DNA of 64,000 nucleotides from NCBI GenBank assembly GCA_001768565.1, contig MEOE01000016.1, positions 1 through 64,000 on the forward strand, written 5' to 3'. The DNA comes from Bacteroidetes bacterium GWF2_33_16. Its GTDB lineage: Bacteria > Bacteroidota > Bacteroidia > Bacteroidales > UBA12077. Positions 2,775 to 46,546 of the stretch are shown here, one piece after another (positions within the stretch are counted from its first letter, which is position 1; each line of letters begins with the position of its first letter). Under the pieces are notes generated by a model. It was not told where the DNA came from. It made no database searches and saw only the letters and a program-made list of their open reading frames with translations. Both the position numbers and the translations under genes were made by a program.

Positions 2775-3001
2775 AATTAAGCCATACAAAAGTAAGTTGT
2801 ATTTATAAGGACTTGGTTGCGATTTGCTGAGAATTATACTAAACAAAACACCAAACAGATATGTATTCCCAGCAATTATGACACAAAATTGAATATATTG
2901 GCCATGTTGGTTTTTGACGTACAAAAAAATGATTCCTTTCGATATAAAACTTTTCAAAAAAAACCTTAGATTTAGCTTTTTGTTTTAGAAACTTAAGAAT
3001 C

Positions 3002-5011
3002 ATGAAATTTCGATCTTTATTCCCATCTATTATTGTATTGATTTTTATATCCATTTCTGTTTTCTCAAGTAATATACAGGTAGAAAAAGGTATTCTTGAT
3101 CTGAGCATTGTTGATATTGAAAAATCACGGAGCATAAAATTACAAGGTGATTGCGAGTTTTACTGGAATAAATTATTGGAACCAAAAGATTTTCAGACCC
3201 AGAATCAAAATCTGGAGCCAGCATTTGTTAAGATTCCTAAATCATGGACCACTTACACAGTAAAGAATACCAAACTAACAAATGAGGGTTATGCAACCTA
3301 TCGGATTATAATAAAAAAACTACCTGATACAAAAAGAACAATCTATGGTTTAAAAGTATCTTCTGTTTTTTCTAATTATAAGCTATGGGTTAATGGCGAA
3401 TTATTAAACGAAACAGGGAAGGTTGGTACACTAAAAAATAATTCGATTCCACAATTTAAATACCAGGATATCGCATTTATTCTTGACCCAGAGAAAGGAC
3501 CAACAGACAAAATCGAGATTATTTTTCAAATTTCGAATTTTTCACATCAAAGAGCCGGCTTACAAAAACCCATATTTTTTGGCACCTTCGAAAATCTAAA
3601 GGCAGATTCACGATGGATGGACATCCTTAATCTTATAATCATTGGGATTATTTTGATTATTGGTATTAATCATCTTAATATGTATTTTTTCCGTCGTAAT
3701 GATATTTCCAATCTTTACTTCAGCATTGTTTGTATTGTAATGATTTTAAGAAATATCTCTACTGAGGATAGGATTATTACTTATATTTTCCCGAATATAA
3801 ACTGGGAATTACTTGTTAAACTTGATAATTTCTCTGGATTTGGTACCATTCCTCTTTTCGCCCTATTCTTTTACAGTTTATTTAAAGATGATTTTCCGAA
3901 AATAATTAAAGACATCCTGATAGGCTTTGGAATATTTGTTACTCTGCTCGTTTTTGCAACTCCTGCCAATTTCTATGGAAGATTCAGAACCTTTTTTGAA
4001 TTATATATTCTGATTGGTGGATTGTATGTTACTTTTGGTGTTTTATTGGTAGCTGCTCTGCGAAAAAGAGAAACTGCACTATTTACTTTTATAGGTATGT
4101 TTATTCTTTACGCTACAGCCATTAATGATGTATTAAGCAGTATGGGGATTATTCAGACTGCATATTTTGCTCCTTATGGACTTGTTACATTTATGGTTAT
4201 CCAATCGATTACAATTACTCACAAGTCGGCAAAAGCTATTAATCAGAACGAACATTTAAGCGATCAACTTAAAGAAGAAAAAGAGAATCTTGAAAAAAAC
4301 ATTTACGAACGTACTAAAGAATTGCAATCGCAACATGAAGTATTAATTCTACATCAGCAAAAAGAAAAACAACAAAACTGGATAAATACAGGAATTGCCC
4401 AAATAAACGACATTCTTGCAGATAACAAGAATGATTTTACAAAATTAAGTGACAAGGTTTTATCAAATCTGGTTAAATATATTGGTGCACAGTTTGGTGT
4501 TTTATATGTTCTAAACCAATTTGATACAAAAGAGCCCTATCTTGAGCTGATATCTGATTTTGGATGTACAAAGGATGTTCGCGAAAATAAGTTGAAAGTT
4601 TACACAAACACAGGAATGCTTGGTGCTGCATTTACCGAAAACAGAGTAATGATTATTACAGATATTCCTGAAAATTACATTAAAATAAAATCCGGACTAG
4701 GTGAAGCAAAACCAAAATCACTAATTATTGTTCCTTTAAGTATAGAAGACAATGTATTTGGGATGATCGAGATTGCAGGATTTAAAGCATTTACTGAAAT
4801 TGAAACCGATTTTGTAAAACGCATTGCTCTAAATATTGCTTCGCAATTAAACAATACTCGAATGAATGAAAGAAACCTTCAGCTTATAGAAAAATATAAA
4901 GAGCAGGAACTCATTATGAGCGAAAAGGAAGAAGAAATGCGCCAGAATTTCGAAGAACTCAGGTTAATGCGTGAGGAATATGAAAAACTCACTGGCACTG
5001 AAATGAATTAG
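3002..5011 (+). CDS. 7TMR-DISM-type membrane sensor with C-terminal GAF domain
   Basis: 669 residues. A signal peptide (1-22) is followed by a ~190-residue beta-rich periplasmic domain resembling the galactose-binding-like DISMED2 module (WVNGELLNETGKVG, then ends IFFGTFENL). About seven hydrophobic segments follow (residues ~205-405), characteristic of 7TMR-DISM receptors. Next come a coiled coil (EKENLEKNIYERTKELQSQ), a GAF domain (about 455-620; TGMLGAAFTENRVMIITD, PKSLIIVPLSI) and a second coiled coil ending in the C-terminus. No histidine kinase, GGDEF or phosphatase domain is present, so the output must lie in a partner protein or in the coiled coil. It is monocistronic with no adjacent response regulator. 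Ligand unknown; a carbohydrate is plausible from the family. Confidence 0.8.
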   Translation: MKFRSLFPSIIVLIFISISVFSSNIQVEKGILDLSIVDIEKSRSIKLQGDCEFYWNKLLEPKDFQTQNQNLEPAFVKIPKSWTTYTVKNTKLTNEGYATYRIIIKKLPDTKRTIYGLKVSSVFSNYKLWVNGELLNETGKVGTLKNNSIPQFKYQDIAFILDPEKGPTDKIEIIFQISNFSHQRAGLQKPIFFGTFENLKADSRWMDILNLIIIGIILIIGINHLNMYFFRRNDISNLYFSIVCIVMILRNISTEDRIITYIFPNINWELLVKLDNFSGFGTIPLFALFFYSLFKDDFPKIIKDILIGFGIFVTLLVFATPANFYGRFRTFFELYILIGGLYVTFGVLLVAALRKRETALFTFIGMFILYATAINDVLSSMGIIQTAYFAPYGLVTFMVIQSITITHKSAKAINQNEHLSDQLKEEKENLEKNIYERTKELQSQHEVLILHQQKEKQQNWINTGIAQINDILADNKNDFTKLSDKVLSNLVKYIGAQFGVLYVLNQFDTKEPYLELISDFGCTKDVRENKLKVYTNTGMLGAAFTENRVMIITDIPENYIKIKSGLGEAKPKSLIIVPLSIEDNVFGMIEIAGFKAFTEIETDFVKRIALNIASQLNNTRMNERNLQLIEKYKEQELIMSEKEEEMRQNFEELRLMREEYEKLTGTEMN

Positions 5012-41161: not shown

Positions 41162-41797
41162 ATGAAAAGAGTTAAAATAATTATTTTCCTGCTGCTAATA
41201 TTTTCTGTTTCTGATCTCTTTGCTCAAATTGATTCGGTTATCTTTAATTTTCATCGTGGAGTCTCGTTATTTGAGTTTTCATTCTTTGCTCAGAAGATTG
41301 ATGAAGGAGATACCATTGTTTTTAATCCAATTGAAAATCTAGACGATACAAACTATGTTTTTCATTGGTATATAGATTTAGTAGAACAAACCAATGATAC
41401 ATTACCTATTTTTAGACACAGATTTGCAACCGAAGGAAATTATACTATTGATCTTGAAGTTTTCGATAAACCTAATAATAATACAATTACTGCTTCTCAA
41501 ATCGTTCCGGTACGCGACACTATAATTATACCCAATGTTTTTTCACCCAACAATGGAGATAATATAAATGATTTATTCATTATTCGTTCGAACGGGATTA
41601 CGCCCCTCGATATTTCCATTTTTAGCAGAACAGGAGTTATGGTGTATAAATCTAAAGCCCCTATTATAATCTGGGATGGAAGAAATTCTACGGGAGCAGA
41701 AATGAGCGAAGGTGTGTATTATTATATTCTCAAATCTGATGATCCGTCGGTAAAGGACAGGGTTGGTTTTATACATCTTTTTAGAAATAAGAAATAA
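41162..41797 (+). CDS. Secreted protein with PKD-like region and T9SS type B sorting domain
   Basis: ATG at 41162 is preferred (211 residues), placing the signal peptide (RVKIIIFLLLIFSVSDLFAQ) at the N-terminus. Residues ~45-115 form a short PKD-like beta domain (YVFHWYIDLVEQ, FATEGNYTIDLEVFD). The last ~85 residues are a CHU_C/type B T9SS sorting domain: IPNVFSPNNGDNINDLF, then WDGRNSTGAEMSEGVYYYIL and a terminal FIHLFRNKK. Type B cargo usually interacts with SprF/PorP-like proteins at the outer membrane. The small size is unusual: it is mostly signal plus sorting domain. Whether the PKD-like part binds anything is unknown. Confidence 0.85.
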   Translation: MKRVKIIIFLLLIFSVSDLFAQIDSVIFNFHRGVSLFEFSFFAQKIDEGDTIVFNPIENLDDTNYVFHWYIDLVEQTNDTLPIFRHRFATEGNYTIDLEVFDKPNNNTITASQIVPVRDTIIIPNVFSPNNGDNINDLFIIRSNGITPLDISIFSRTGVMVYKSKAPIIIWDGRNSTGAEMSEGVYYYILKSDDPSVKDRVGFIHLFRNKK

Positions 41798-41924
41798 CTC
41801 TTCATTCTCGATTATTATTTATTATATCACCTATTTTATTTTAAATCTGCAACTTTATGTGTTTTGTTATTTAGAAAAACCTAATACTATTTATTAGAAT
41901 ATGGTTTTCTGTTAAAGGTTTTTT

Positions 41925-41932
41925 TATCTTTG
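41925..41932 (+). promoter_or_regulatory. -7 promoter element of the cytochrome bd operon
   Basis: TATCTTTG, exact TAnnTTTG, 16 bases before the DUF4492 start. An imperfect inverted repeat (AGAAAAACC near 41873 / GGTTTTCT ending 41910) lies just upstream and could be a redox-regulator site. Confidence 0.55.
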
Positions 41933-41948
41933 AATAAGGAATTCAAAA

Positions 41949-42188
41949 ATGACTATACAAAAAAACATTTTTAAGCAGGTTTTCCTTTTCTATTACGAAG
42001 GATTTAGAAGTATGACCTTAGGTAAACGGCTTTGGATTATTATCCTTATTAAGCTCTTTATCATATTTGTAATACTTAAATTATTTTTCTTTCCCAATTT
42101 ACTAAAATCAAATTTTGCTACCGATAAAGAGCGTGGCGAATATGTGCTTGAACAATTAACAACTCCTAAAAAAATAAACAATGATTGA
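41949..42188 (+). CDS. DUF4492 small membrane protein, cytochrome bd operon
   Basis: 79 residues of the DUF4492 family, which in Bacteroidota and Epsilonproteobacteria is found directly before cydA. N-terminal amphipathic segment (IFKQVFLFYYEGFRSMTLGKR), then one transmembrane helix (LWIIILIKLFIIFVILKLFFF), then a charged tail ending at a residue shared with the start of cydA. The gene overlaps cydA by 8 bases, so translation is coupled. Role probably in assembly or stability of the bd oxidase; not proven. Confidence 0.85.
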   Translation: MTIQKNIFKQVFLFYYEGFRSMTLGKRLWIIILIKLFIIFVILKLFFFPNLLKSNFATDKERGEYVLEQLTTPKKINND

Positions 42189-43746
42189 AAACGTAGATAT
42201 GGCATTAGTAAACTGGTCGAGAGCACAATTTGCTCTTACTGCTATGTATCATTGGCTCTTTGTTCCCCTGACCCTGGGAATAACTTTTATAATAGCCTTT
42301 ATGGAGACTATTTATGTTAAAACTGGCGATCCCGAATGGAAACGCATAACCAAATTCTGGATGACAATTTTCGGAATTAATTTTGCAATTGGTGTAGCCA
42401 CAGGTATTATCCTTGAATTCGAATTTGGTACAAACTGGTCGAACTATTCGTGGTTTGTTGGTGATATTTTTGGAGCACCGCTAGCAATTGAAGGAATAAT
42501 GGCCTTTTTCCTTGAATCTACTTTTATCGCCATTATGTTTTTTGGGTGGAATAAAGTAAGTAAGAAATTTCATCTCTTATCGACCTGGCTGGTTGCATTT
42601 GGATCAAACCTTTCTGCTCTTTGGATCTTGGTAGCCAATGGATGGATGCAATCACCCGTAGGAATGCATTTTAATCCCGATGCTGCCCGCAACGAAATGC
42701 TTAATTTCTGGGAAGTTTTTTTATCACCCATAGCAATAAATAAATTTCTGCATACCATTACGTCAGGATATGTTTTGGCAGCCATCTTTGTTATTGGCAT
42801 TAGTGCATGGTATTTAATTAAAGGGCGTGAGCAATTACTTGCAAAACGTAGCATTGTTATTTCTTCTGTATTTGGCTTGTTAAGTTGTTTGTTTTTAGTA
42901 TATACTGGTGATGGTTCAGCATATCAGGTTGCTCAAAAGCAACCCATGAAACTGGCTGCCATGGAAGGTCTTTATCAAGGATCGAAAGGCGCAGGAATTG
43001 TTGTACTCGGAATGCCAACACCAGGAAAACAGTACAATGACTCAAAAGATGAATTCGTATTTAAGTTTGAAATACCTAAGTTATTATCGTTTTTAGGATA
43101 TGGCGATACCGAAGCATTTGTTCCCGGCGTTAATGATTTAATTAACGGAGGTTTTGAATATACAGATAAAGATGGAAATACCCAGTTAGCAATATCTGCA
43201 GAGCAAAAAATAGAACAAGGAAAAATATCGATAGCTGCATTACGCGAGTATAAAAATGCCAAACAAAATAATGATCCTGTCAAAATGGAAGAATCATTAT
43301 TAACTTTTAAAGAAAGCTTTCGTTATTTCGGTTATGGTTTTTTAAACGATCCAGGAAGCATAATACCTAATGTACCCCTTACGTTTTATAGTTTTCACAT
43401 AATGGTAGGATTGGGTTTTTATTTTATTCTATTTTTTAGTTTGGCCCTATTTTTTGTGTTTGTTGATAAGCTCGAATCTAAAAAATGGTTTTTACGCCTC
43501 TCAGTGTTAACTATCCCATTAGCCTATATTGCATCTATGTCGGGTTGGATTGTTGCAGAAGTGGGTCGCCAACCTTGGACTATTCAGGATTTACTACCAA
43601 CAGTAGCAGCAGTATCTCAGATCGATGCTAGTGCCGTTCAGATTACATTCTGGCTTTTTATGGTCATATTTACTGCACTGCTGATTGCAGAGATAAAAAT
43701 CATGACTAAACAAATAAACATAGGACCTAAAGAAGGAGGACATTAA
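42181..43746 (+). CDS. cydA: Cytochrome bd ubiquinol/menaquinol oxidase subunit I
   Basis: 521 residues with nine transmembrane segments. Starts with DMALVNWSRAQFALTAMYHWLFVPLTLG, containing the first haem-ligand histidine of CydA. FEFGTNWSNYSWFVGDIFGAPLAIEG is the second canonical segment and SGWIVAEVGRQPWTI carries the GRQPW motif after the Q-loop. The Q-loop (quinol site, ~residues 240-380) is long and rich in charged residues, apparently the L-type. CydA carries haems b558, b595 and d and oxidises quinol while reducing O2 to water with high affinity. In an operon with DUF4492, cydB and a tiny ORF. Confidence 0.96.
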   Translation: MIENVDMALVNWSRAQFALTAMYHWLFVPLTLGITFIIAFMETIYVKTGDPEWKRITKFWMTIFGINFAIGVATGIILEFEFGTNWSNYSWFVGDIFGAPLAIEGIMAFFLESTFIAIMFFGWNKVSKKFHLLSTWLVAFGSNLSALWILVANGWMQSPVGMHFNPDAARNEMLNFWEVFLSPIAINKFLHTITSGYVLAAIFVIGISAWYLIKGREQLLAKRSIVISSVFGLLSCLFLVYTGDGSAYQVAQKQPMKLAAMEGLYQGSKGAGIVVLGMPTPGKQYNDSKDEFVFKFEIPKLLSFLGYGDTEAFVPGVNDLINGGFEYTDKDGNTQLAISAEQKIEQGKISIAALREYKNAKQNNDPVKMEESLLTFKESFRYFGYGFLNDPGSIIPNVPLTFYSFHIMVGLGFYFILFFSLALFFVFVDKLESKKWFLRLSVLTIPLAYIASMSGWIVAEVGRQPWTIQDLLPTVAAVSQIDASAVQITFWLFMVIFTALLIAEIKIMTKQINIGPKEGGH

Positions 43747-43747
43747 T

Positions 43748-44878
43748 ATGCTTGAAACAATATCGCATTTAGCATTACAACAATATTGGTGGCTAATTAT
43801 CTCCCTCTTGGGAGCTATCCTGGTTTTTTTGATGTTTGTTCAGGGAGGGCAAACCCTTATTTATACATTAGGAAAAACAGAACTTGAACGAAGATTAATA
43901 ATAAACTCTTTAGGTCGAAAATGGGAGTTTACCTTTACCACTCTTGTGACTTTCGGTGGAGCATTTTTTGCCTCATTTCCATTATTCTACTCCACAAGTT
44001 TTGGTGGAGCATACTGGGTGTGGATGATTATCTTATTTGCATTTATAATACAAGCCGTATCGTATGAATTCCGGTCGAAACCAAATAATTTTCTGGGTGC
44101 AAAAACATATGAAATATTTCTATTCATTAATGGGGCATTAGGAACAATTCTGCTTGGCATAGCAGTTTCTACTTTCTTTACCGGATCAGAGTTTTCGCTA
44201 AACGAAATGAACTTCTCAAAATGGGAAGGTGCAGCATATGGACTTGAGCTTGCATTAAATTTGCACAACTTATCTCTTGGATTGGCTGTATTTTTTCTTG
44301 CAAGAGTTTTAGGTATTCTCTATTTTATGAACAACATTGATCATCCAGAAATTATTGCTCGTTCTAAAAAGCAATTGATTATTAATGCAATTCCATTCCT
44401 TGTATTCTTTCTTCTATTTGTTATTTGGTTGCTTTTTATTGATGGCTTTGCTTATAATTCTATTACAAAGCAGGTATCAATGGAGCCATACAAGTATTTG
44501 CATAATTTTATTCAAATGCCTGTAGTATTAATCCTTTTCCTTATTGGTGTTGTGCTAGTGCTTTTCGGGATAGGGAAATCTATCTTAAAATCATGTTCAA
44601 ACGGAATTTGGTTTGCAGGAGCAGGAACAATCTTAGCGGTTTTATCATTATTCCTTGTAGCAGGATTAAACAATACAGCCTTTTATCCATCAACGTTCAA
44701 TTTACAAAACTCTTTAACAATTGAAAATGCATCATCTAGTAAATATACTTTAACAATTATGAGCTATGTTTCATTAATGGTTCCTTTTGTTGCAGCTTAT
44801 ATCTGGTTTGCATGGAGATCAATCAATAATAAAAAGATTGACGCCAATGAAATGAGCGAGGATATTCATGTGTATTAA
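43748..44878 (+). CDS. cydB: Cytochrome bd oxidase subunit II
   Basis: 376 residues with eight transmembrane segments. It opens LQQYWWLIISLLGAILVFLMFVQGGQTLIY, as in Bacteroidota CydB, and contains GRKWEFTFTTLVTFGGAFFASFPLFYS. A strong Shine-Dalgarno (AAGGAGG, 43733-43739) sits inside the end of cydA, one base separates the two genes, and coupling is clear. CydB is the non-haem partner in the bd oxidase. A small membrane ORF follows 30 bases downstream. Confidence 0.95.
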   Translation: MLETISHLALQQYWWLIISLLGAILVFLMFVQGGQTLIYTLGKTELERRLIINSLGRKWEFTFTTLVTFGGAFFASFPLFYSTSFGGAYWVWMIILFAFIIQAVSYEFRSKPNNFLGAKTYEIFLFINGALGTILLGIAVSTFFTGSEFSLNEMNFSKWEGAAYGLELALNLHNLSLGLAVFFLARVLGILYFMNNIDHPEIIARSKKQLIINAIPFLVFFLLFVIWLLFIDGFAYNSITKQVSMEPYKYLHNFIQMPVVLILFLIGVVLVLFGIGKSILKSCSNGIWFAGAGTILAVLSLFLVAGLNNTAFYPSTFNLQNSLTIENASSSKYTLTIMSYVSLMVPFVAAYIWFAWRSINNKKIDANEMSEDIHVY

Positions 44879-44908
44879 CTTTCTTCTTTAAACTTATAAC
44901 TTTAAATT

Positions 44909-45010
44909 ATGTATATAACTGAAATAATCTGGTTGGCATTGTGGCCTGTTTTAATCTGGGTAAGTTATAAACTATCAGTTTTAGCTATAGAAAAGATCGA
45001 AAAAAAATAA
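44909..45010 (+). CDS. 33-residue single-helix membrane protein after cydB, candidate CydX-like subunit
   Basis: ATG at 44909 opens a 33-codon frame to TAA at 45008-45010: one membrane helix (about residues 5-20, rich in Trp, Leu and Ile, with WLALWPVLIWVSYKL) followed by a charged tail (AIEKIEKK). It is the only such frame between cydB and the aroF-like gene. In proteobacteria the cyd operon also ends in a 30-40-residue single-helix subunit, CydX, needed for stable bd oxidase. Position, size and topology fit; sequence similarity to E. coli CydX is not obvious by eye, so this is an inference from context. Confidence 0.6.
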   Translation: MYITEIIWLALWPVLIWVSYKLSVLAIEKIEKK

Positions 45011-45070
45011 TTTTATTTTCTTTTTGGTTATAAATACTTAATTGTAAACTGTAAATCAACTTAATAAATA

Positions 45071-46177
45071 ATGCCCAAATTAAAAAATATCGTTCCCCTT
45101 AAAAAATGGTTTAAAGGAATTGGAGATTCTCCATTAATAATTGCAGGTCCATGTAGCGCCGAATCGGAAACACAGATTCTAACTACTGCCAAACAAATTG
45201 CGGCATTAGGTAAGGTTAAAATTTTCCGAACTGGTATCTGGAAACCTCGAACTCGTCCAGGCAGTTTCGAGGGTGTAGGCAAACAAGGATTAATCTGGTT
45301 ACAACAAGTTAAAAAAGAGACTGGATTACTTACCGCTGTTGAAGTAGCCCGTCCTGAGCATATTGATCTGGCTGTTAAATATGATGTAGACATTTTGTGG
45401 ATTGGTGCCAGAACAACTTCAAACCCATTTTCAGTTCAAGAGTTAGCCGATTATATGAAAGGTATTGACAAACCAGTGATGGTGAAGAATCCTATTAATC
45501 CTGATTTGCAATTATGGATTGGTGCTTTAGAACGCTTTAATAAAGCTGGAATAGAAAAGCTTGCTGCAGTACATCGTGGATTTTACCCATTCGAAAAAAC
45601 TACGCTTCGCAATATACCCAAATGGGAAATTCCTATTGAACTAAAAAGCTTATGTCATAGCTTGCCAATAATTTGCGATCCGAGTCATATTGCCGGAAAT
45701 ACTGAATATATTGCTGAAATAGCCCAAAAAGCATTCGATCTAAATATGGACGGACTAATGATTGAGACTCATTGCAATCCAACTGAAGCACTTAGTGATG
45801 CAGAACAGCAATTAACACCTCATCAGTTAAATATTCTTATCGAAAATTTAGTTGTTCGCAAAGCAACATCTGATGATGAAACCTTCACGAATATTTTAGA
45901 AACACTACGAAACAGGATAGATTCTATTGATCAACAAATGATAGAATTATTGGCTCAACGAATGACAGTAGTTGAAGAAATTGGCAAGTATAAAAGCCAA
46001 AAACAAGTTACTATTTTACAATTACGTCGTTGGGAAAAAATTGTTACTACAAGAATTAAACATGGTAAGGCGCTAGGATTATCGGAAGAATTTGTAAAAA
46101 AACTACTTCAGCTTGTACATAAAGAATCAATTCAACGGCAAACTGAAGTAATGAGTAAGATAAAATCTTCTAAATAG
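45071..46177 (+). CDS. Bifunctional DAHP synthase (type Ibeta) / chorismate mutase
   Basis: 368 residues. Residues ~1-260 form the 3-deoxy-D-arabino-heptulosonate 7-phosphate synthase: IIAGPCSAESETQI at 22-35, FRTGIWKPRTRPGSFEGVG, AVHRGFYPFEKT and the metal-ligand motif ICDPSHIAGN. It belongs to the class that lacks the N-terminal regulatory extension of type Ialpha. Residues ~275-368 are an AroQ-type chorismate mutase (LRNRIDSIDQQMIELLAQRM and EIGKYKSQKQ). This synthase-mutase order is usual in Bacteroidota and lets the mutase domain mediate feedback control by prephenate or chorismate. First step of aromatic synthesis plus the Phe/Tyr branch point. Monocistronic. Confidence 0.93.
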   Translation: MPKLKNIVPLKKWFKGIGDSPLIIAGPCSAESETQILTTAKQIAALGKVKIFRTGIWKPRTRPGSFEGVGKQGLIWLQQVKKETGLLTAVEVARPEHIDLAVKYDVDILWIGARTTSNPFSVQELADYMKGIDKPVMVKNPINPDLQLWIGALERFNKAGIEKLAAVHRGFYPFEKTTLRNIPKWEIPIELKSLCHSLPIICDPSHIAGNTEYIAEIAQKAFDLNMDGLMIETHCNPTEALSDAEQQLTPHQLNILIENLVVRKATSDDETFTNILETLRNRIDSIDQQMIELLAQRMTVVEEIGKYKSQKQVTILQLRRWEKIVTTRIKHGKALGLSEEFVKKLLQLVHKESIQRQTEVMSKIKSSK

Positions 46178-46199
46178 GGTAATGTACTGAAAAATAGTT

Positions 46200-46229
46200 G
46201 GTAGAATATTTTGAATGATTTATTCTACC
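46200..46229. repeat. Hairpin between convergent genes
   Basis: GGTAGAATA (46200-46208) / TATTCTACC (46221-46229), 9-bp perfect stem with a 12-base loop. No strong T tract; probably an accessory stem to the terminator just downstream. Confidence 0.55.
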
Positions 46230-46241
46230 TATTTATTAGAG

Positions 46242-46275
46242 AAGTTTTATGAATCGATTTTCATAAAACTTTTTC
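46242..46275 (+). terminator. Rho-independent terminator
   Basis: AAGTTTTATGA (46242-46252) / TCATAAAACTT (46261-46271), 11-bp perfect stem with 8-base loop and T run; ends the DAHP synthase gene and may also face the purS gene. Confidence 0.75.
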
Positions 46276-46291
46276 GTTGCTTAAAGATCTA

Positions 46292-46546
46292 TTATTTCAA
46301 TTCTTTCAATGTATAATCGTAACCTTCCATTATTGGGTTCGAAAGAATTTTATTACATGCTTCGTTTACTCTTTCCATTGCTGCTTCTTTACTTTTCGCT
46401 TCTATTTCGAGAGTAATATGTTTTCCTATTCGAACATTTGATACTTCGGTAAACCCAATATTTTTCATGCTATGAGTAACCGCTTTACCTTGTGGATCGA
46501 GCAATGCTTTTAATGGCATCACGTTAATTTCAGCAATAAATTTCAT
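46292..46546 (-). CDS. purS: Phosphoribosylformylglycinamidine synthase subunit PurS
   Basis: 84 residues, the normal PurS length. The start MKFIAEINVMPLKALLDPQG and the stretch GKAVTHSMKNIGFTEVSNVRIGKHI are diagnostic of PurS, the small subunit that dimerises and links PurL and PurQ in the three-part FGAM synthase of purine synthesis. PurL and PurQ are not in the window. Second gene of pssA-purS, 11 bases after pssA; the pairing with a lipid enzyme is odd but probably only a shared transcript. Confidence 0.92.
   Translation of the reverse strand: MKFIAEINVMPLKALLDPQGKAVTHSMKNIGFTEVSNVRIGKHITLEIEAKSKEAAMERVNEACNKILSNPIMEGYDYTLKELK

Follow-up and report, generated by a model that had tools for sequence, protein, structure and literature searches.

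The window (the whole stretch of 64,000 nucleotides that was analysed) comes from Bacteroidetes bacterium GWF2_33_16, a member of the order Bacteroidales with a genome size of 4.33 Mb, and contains a cytochrome bd oxidase operon whose features are collected in Table 1. The last of these is a small ORF with an ATG start and a TAA stop, separated from the cydB stop by 30 nt; its downstream neighbour, from position 45071, is a DAHP synthase/chorismate mutase gene. The initial annotation had given the coordinates, the strand, the length of 33 codons and the gap after cydB correctly, and the neighbours that it named (DUF4492 upstream, cydA and cydB) were all borne out by matches to PF14899, PF01654 and PF02322. 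The cydB product also scored 139.6 bits against TIGR00203, above the cut-off of 117.3. Residues 9-517 of the window CydA align with residues 4-502 of E. coli bd-I subunit 1, and the protein aligns full-length with E. coli CydA and AppC and also with long-Q-loop relatives; by alignment it is thus a long-Q-loop CydA, the type with which CydX and CydY are associated. His191 is invariant in an alignment of seven sequences and corresponds by offset to E. coli His186, which is reported to be a ligand of haem b558 (PMC6853902).

Table 1. Features of the cytochrome bd operon in the window
Feature	Position	Strand	Basis
DUF4492 gene, first in operon	41949..42188	+	PF14899 2.5e-29
cydA, cytochrome bd subunit I, 521 aa, long Q-loop type	42181..43746	+	PF01654 2.9e-169
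CydA TM5, residues 183-213, holds conserved His191	42727..42819	+	bounds by eye from hydropathy
CydA TM6, residues 221-243	42841..42909	+	bounds by eye from hydropathy
cydB, cytochrome bd subunit II, 376 aa	43748..44878	+	PF02322 4.8e-69
small-protein gene, 33 codons, candidate cytochrome bd small subunit	44909..45010	+	ORF, conservation, predicted helix

The product of the small ORF has a single hydrophobic stretch, is free of Lys and Arg up to residue 20 and ends in a Lys-rich C-terminus. Comparable hydrophobic ATG ORFs of 28-55 codons, lying no more than 150 nt from the end of a long ORF, occur at 4 of 41 such ends in the window (the small ORF included), so position, size and hydropathy by themselves are weak evidence for a gene. 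A pattern scan revealed nothing terminator-like in the gap from cydB to the small ORF, and no Rfam match was found in 41700-46400. The Bacteroidota-type promoter pattern gave three matches in the window, none of them in the operon and not above chance.

Conservation and distribution of the small gene

The initial annotation had made its case dependent on the frame being kept in sister genomes and on a test of selection. Stops and indels were looked for, and the frame is conserved: 16 of 19 congeneric genomes match the small protein at E ≤ 3.5e-10 with no internal stops, the remaining three comprising two weak matches (3.7e-4 and 0.010) and one genome without a match. Of 59 relatives in all, 42 gave a match to the protein at E ≤ 1. 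A profile built from 11 seeds was searched against 80 named cydB loci, of which L032 was dropped (its DNA ends at cydB). The family was present after cydB on the coding (+) strand in 73 of the 79 loci with downstream DNA, starting 10-605 nt past cydB, and was not found there at L025, L038, L044, L050, L078 and L079. When these 73 sequences are aligned with that of the window, 32 core columns are gap-free, though the spacer between cydB and the ORF varies in length. Pro13 is conserved in 72 of the 74, Ile16 in 68 and Tyr20 in 58; of the two Trp near the N-terminus, one is kept in 53 and the other, Trp12, in 63. Apart from one member of 51 aa (L054), the proteins are shorter than 50 aa, with a single predicted helix and a gene after cydB. 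Among the 14 closest sequences the pooled pN/pS is 0.187, and third codon positions account for 60% (0.60) of the differences, a share reached in none of 5000 column shuffles; dN/dS values of single pairs were left out because many of these pairs are close to saturated at synonymous sites. On this pattern of substitution the small ORF is under purifying selection, and ORF 44909-45010 is judged to be a real gene, easily missed.

In a sample of the order, 115 of 295 Bacteroidales genomes carry the family at E ≤ 0.001, in 118 places, and a CydB match (E ≤ 1e-10) is present in 207 of the 295, with 150 places among the matches listed. The small gene adjoins cydB in 112 of its 118 places: 106 follow a listed cydB at a distance of 7-624 nt, and six more (L157, L159, L160, L161, L162 and L164) lie beside cydB in the fetched DNA. 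The other six consist of two clear members near contig ends (L158, L165), a doubtful one (L166, 24.6 bits), two weak ones (L168, 16.4 bits; G487:C109, E 9.8e-4), and a clear copy at L163:1838-1969 (-), which stands among other genes with no cydB in the 5.6 kb of DNA covered; its genome, G389, also has a cydB match, outside the matches listed. Carriers of the small gene that are in culture include Labilibacter, Plebeiobacterium and Geofilum rhodophaeum. At 44 of the 150 listed cydB places (29%) the small gene is absent, and DUF4492 was detected at 37 of these 44. The downstream DNA of 43 of them gave no profile match above 10 bits (with about 230 nt covered at L126 and L147). The remaining place, L137, has a 34-codon hydrophobic ORF 25 nt past the cydB stop in the oriented DNA; it scores 14.8 bits and is probably a divergent member.

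The records of Bacteroides ovatus, Prevotella nigrescens and Parabacteroides distasonis (L115, L116 and L186) keep DUF4492-cydA-cydB, and neither inspection by eye nor the profile found such an ORF after cydB in them; their best profile score, 11.7 bits, lies elsewhere in L115. The small protein would be dispensable for some oxidases of this kind, since relatives keep DUF4492-cydAB without it. In a sample of the phylum the family was found in 1 of 296 genomes, the window's own, and DUF4492 in 3 of 296. The four-gene operon proposed by the initial annotation for Bacteroidota is thus real in many Bacteroidales; it does not extend to Bacteroidota at large, nor to the three records just named.

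A tree of CydB with 139 rows places all 82 gene-bearing rows inside one group of 108 rows (SH-aLRT 99), and the other 28 Bacteroidales rows, including the three named records, are labelled as without the small gene. The tree requires 17 changes of state, at least 8 of them forced by well-supported branches. It is the product of a quick search with long branches flagged, and it is rooted by three proteobacterial rows that are very distant. The label 'absent' includes L032 and L126 (not judgeable), L137 (the divergent candidate) as well as three pairs of loci that are identical; the small gene of the genome of L126 sits on another contig, L158. This distribution is compatible with a gain within Bacteroidales followed by losses, as well as with an older origin and a larger number of losses. 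Relatives of the operon from Campylobacterota were sought on mobile elements, with none among the best 60 of 249 and 30 of 670 plasmid rows or among four viral contigs. One viral contig, L188, carries DUF4492-cydA-cydB without the small ORF; another, L189 (IMG/VR), carries a cydA of proteobacterial type preceded by a small ORF at 2855-3046 (+) that looks CydP-like by eye.

The first gene of the operon may have a described counterpart. In Porphyromonas gingivalis, cydW is reported upstream of cydAB and co-transcribed with it (PMC4668044), and by its position cydW would be a DUF4492 gene. The same report describes this species as without CydX, and without CydY or CydZ directly downstream of cydAB (PMC4668044). 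In a comparison of DUF4492 with the NCBIfam model of CydP (NF045611), 6 of 20 members matched at E ≤ 1, the best at 0.0021, all sub-threshold; DUF4492 may be the Bacteroidota counterpart of CydP.

Predicted helix and covariation with CydA

AlphaFold2, run on the family alignment, predicted one helix of residues 3-32 with a mean pLDDT of 94.6. Lys and Arg are confined to the part from residue 21 on, and by the positive-inside rule the Lys-rich C-terminus is predicted to be cytoplasmic and the N-terminus periplasmic. This orientation agrees with the structure reported for E. coli CydX (PMC6853902).

Covariation was analysed by Gaussian direct-coupling analysis on distinct sets of small protein (s), CydA (A) and CydB (B). 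Of 162 loci, 157 had enough of CydA and CydB, and 148 remained after removal of identical rows, a small set with an effective number of 102. The strongest inter-protein couplings were s23-A227, in TM6 (z 10.6), and s9-A186 (8.5), and further top couplings (s12-A193, s14-A197, s19-A201, s15-A194) lie, like s9-A186, in TM5. A single parallel band on TM5 (CydA = s + 180) takes in five cells with z > 4, their sum being 29.0. In random 80% subsamples s23-A227 ranked first in 17 of 17, and the TM5 band was best in 16 of 17. The direction along TM6 is ambiguous, with two cells either way and sums of 14.6 and 14.5. The best band on CydB has three cells and a sum of 14.3; the bands on TM1, TM9 and CydB are all weaker than that on TM5 in the real data, and no strong coupling to TM1 was seen. 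Several top couplings (s9-A301, s7-A211, s18-A111 and s7-B259) fit no single groove.

With the pairing permuted and bands counted over the CydA helices, 1 of 57 permutations matches the real band (six cells with a sum of 28.9 vs five cells with 29.0), and one more of the 57 reaches five cells with a sum of 24.1; a TM5-parallel band had at most three cells in all 35 permutations where it was reported. Once bands in any part of CydA were counted, the real band was surpassed in number of cells by 2 of 22 permutations (six cells, with sums of 29.6 and 28.2). The largest real coupling (10.2 in the run with CydA only) was exceeded in 1 of 68 permutations (12.0). Permuted bands, too, tend toward the variable TM5/TM6 stretch. 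An enrichment of TM5/TM6 columns in the top ten couplings (6 in the real data) was dropped as a measure, 11 permutations giving 1 to 5. In a control with DUF4492 (184 sets with CydA and CydB) the couplings stayed within those of its own permutations: a DUF4492-CydB band of five cells (sum 24.0) was matched or passed by 3 of 22 permutations and a DUF4492-CydA band of four cells (sum 18.4) was passed by 10 of 11, and both were rejected. The band statistic was defined after the couplings had been seen, and the permutations ignore ancestry and are hence lenient (in a within-cluster version one cluster holds 125 of the 148 rows); for these reasons docking of the small helix on CydA TM5/TM6 is graded as suggestive. 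Such a docking fits what has been published on CydX, a source independent of the present data.

Comparison with known small subunits

CydX is needed for the assembly and activity of the oxidase; its profiles are presumably PF08173 and TIGR02106. No match to a CydX model was obtained for the window protein (Pfam/NCBIfam, E ≤ 10) or for 51 members (E ≤ 1), and the curated families of Pfam and NCBIfam gave no credible match of these 51 members to CydX, CydZ or anything else. The best NCBIfam match, of a single member at E 0.0026, was to an unrelated five-TM family, and the PDB sequence search returned unrelated chains (best E 9.7 for the single protein and 0.58 for the profile). By hhalign against nine CydX sequences the probability is weak, at 16%, with a score of 16.0 that lies above all 66 control windows (best 13.1); kinship with CydX is possible on this comparison of profiles.

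The CydX of E. coli is described as a helix of 37 residues that touches CydA TM1, 5 and 6 and has a cytoplasmic C-terminus (PMC6853902); a review gives the contacts as TM1, 4, 5, 6 and 7 (PMC8951039), and in an earlier paper the C-terminus was predicted to be periplasmic (PMC5322542). The small protein shares with CydX the place after cydB, the size, the single helix, a pair of Trp near the N-terminus at a spacing of four residues, the predicted cytoplasmic C-terminus and the suggestive contact with CydA TM5/TM6. It differs in that the consensus MWYFAWILG is missing and a W-P pair is kept instead. Its covariation hints at TM5 and TM6 and not at TM1 (with 1 of 57 permutations equal). CydX homologues are reported to have Trp6 in all known cases and Tyr3 and Gly9 in nearly all (PMC6005532); this signature is not found in the family, whose Trp positions stand at 53 and 63 of 74 and whose consensus lacks Gly.

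In anatomy the nearest described protein is CydY/CioY, here compared by description. CydY of Epsilon- and Deltaproteobacteria is reported to follow cydB in long-Q-loop operons lacking cydX, to have an absolutely conserved Trp, and to be accompanied by a small hydrophobic protein encoded upstream of every such operon (PMC4325964). CioY, the form of CydY in Campylobacter jejuni, has 34 aa, among them conserved Trp, Pro and Tyr, and is reported to co-precipitate with CioA (PMC11955535). The small protein resembles them in its length of about 34 aa, its single helix, the place of its gene after cydB, the long-Q-loop CydA, the absence of CydX, and the small membrane protein gene upstream of cydA. 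The conserved residues of CioY are paralleled by Trp (53 and 63), Pro (72) and Tyr (58 of 74), and no single Trp column of the Bacteroidales family reaches the absolute conservation reported for CydY. CydY and CioY belong to a different phylum, and the likeness is drawn from published descriptions.

Single helices are also formed by CydS of Geobacillus and by AppX of E. coli bd-II, both placed beside CydA near haem b558 (PMC8951039); unlike the present case, CydS belongs to a short-Q-loop enzyme. CydZ (DUF2474, PF10617) likewise is a single helix encoded after cydB, with a Trp at the helix start, and is reported from short-Q-loop operons (PMC4325964), whereas the Q-loop here is long; family members gave no match to DUF2474. 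The DUF4492 protein is also a small membrane protein of the same operon, but it is encoded upstream of cydA, belongs to a separate family, and is present where the small gene is absent. CydH/YnhF of E. coli, another protein to which the name CydY has also been applied, is encoded outside the cyd operon and binds between CydA TM1 and TM9. The small protein is unlike it, its gene lying directly after cydB and its couplings to TM1 and TM9 being weaker than those to TM5.

Proposed role and alternative readings

The reading that we consider likely is that the gene encodes a CydX-like subunit of cytochrome bd, a single helix on CydA, most likely in the TM5/TM6 groove, that aids assembly or stability. 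The small gene would be the last of a co-transcribed DUF4492-cydA-cydB-small ORF operon, and its expressed product a small inner-membrane protein with one transmembrane helix that belongs to the oxidase complex. The helix would pack on CydA near haem b558, most likely between TM5 and TM6, the site of CydX in E. coli, and such a clamp would help the assembly and stability of the haem sites. The CydX-like reading of the initial annotation, proposed from position, size and topology, has thus gained in support from the predicted orientation and the suggestive covariation with TM5/TM6, with homology to CydX as a possibility.

The chances seem evenly balanced that the small protein is a true orthologue of Campylobacterota CydY/CioY, inherited together with the DUF4492-cydA-cydB operon, a reading that concerns descent and not function. 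The place of CydY after cydB in long-Q-loop operons without cydX and the small hydrophobic protein gene upstream of them (PMC4325964) speak for it, as do the Trp, Pro and Tyr of CioY and its co-precipitation with CioA (PMC11955535), when set beside Pro, Trp12 and Tyr20 of the Bacteroidales family. However, the resemblance is one of published descriptions, and inheritance demands that the gene was lost from the 28 Bacteroidales rows lying beyond the main CydB group. Those same rows, together with the confinement of all 82 gene-bearing rows to one well-supported group, fit a bd subunit of separate origin, gained within Bacteroidales and convergent with CydX, which we regard as possible and somewhat less probable than not. 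That neither CydX nor any curated family is credibly matched, and that the CydX profile probability is low, points the same way; the hhalign score above every control window, on the other hand, hints at kinship, the root is formed by three very distant rows, and loss elsewhere explains the pattern equally well. A combined form, in which a subunit independent of CydX occupies the same CydA groove in many Bacteroidales and lineages such as Bacteroides and Prevotella run the same DUF4492-CydA-CydB enzyme without it, appears rather unlikely.

Binding at another site, be it TM1/TM9 in the manner of CydH, CydB or the DUF4492 protein, or service as a transient assembly factor, is a still less probable fate for a membrane protein of this operon: the TM5/TM6 coupling is suggestive and s7-B259, s10-B23 and s18-A111 lie elsewhere among the top couplings, but the bands on TM1, TM9 and CydB are weaker than the band on TM5. 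It is extremely improbable that the ORF is untranslated, its conservation reflecting an element in the operon's 3' UTR, or that it is a chance ORF of the kind seen at other gene ends in the window, given the codon-position pattern, the gap-free core, the lack of an Rfam match around the operon and the copy at L163 that stands away from cydB.

The small-protein family is matched by no Pfam or NCBIfam model. Among the matches listed in the open literature (titles and the starts of abstracts, subscription journals lying mostly outside), nothing dealt with a small subunit encoded after cydB in Bacteroidota; two catalogues of small proteins (PMC11364881, PMC7903761) touch on CydX in passing. Within the literature searched, the probable CydX-like structural subunit is new for Bacteroidota. 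Small subunits of this kind are readily overlooked by gene callers, yet are able to decide the assembly of a bd oxidase, and a conserved family outside the current models is a direct target for purification, structure determination and deletion. Relatives that share the rest of the operon differ in whether they carry it, a contrast that makes the purpose of CydX-type subunits testable. If a subunit of independent origin did occupy the site of CydX, the groove on CydA would be one that is repeatedly filled by unrelated single helices, tuned to lifestyle and not a requirement of catalysis.
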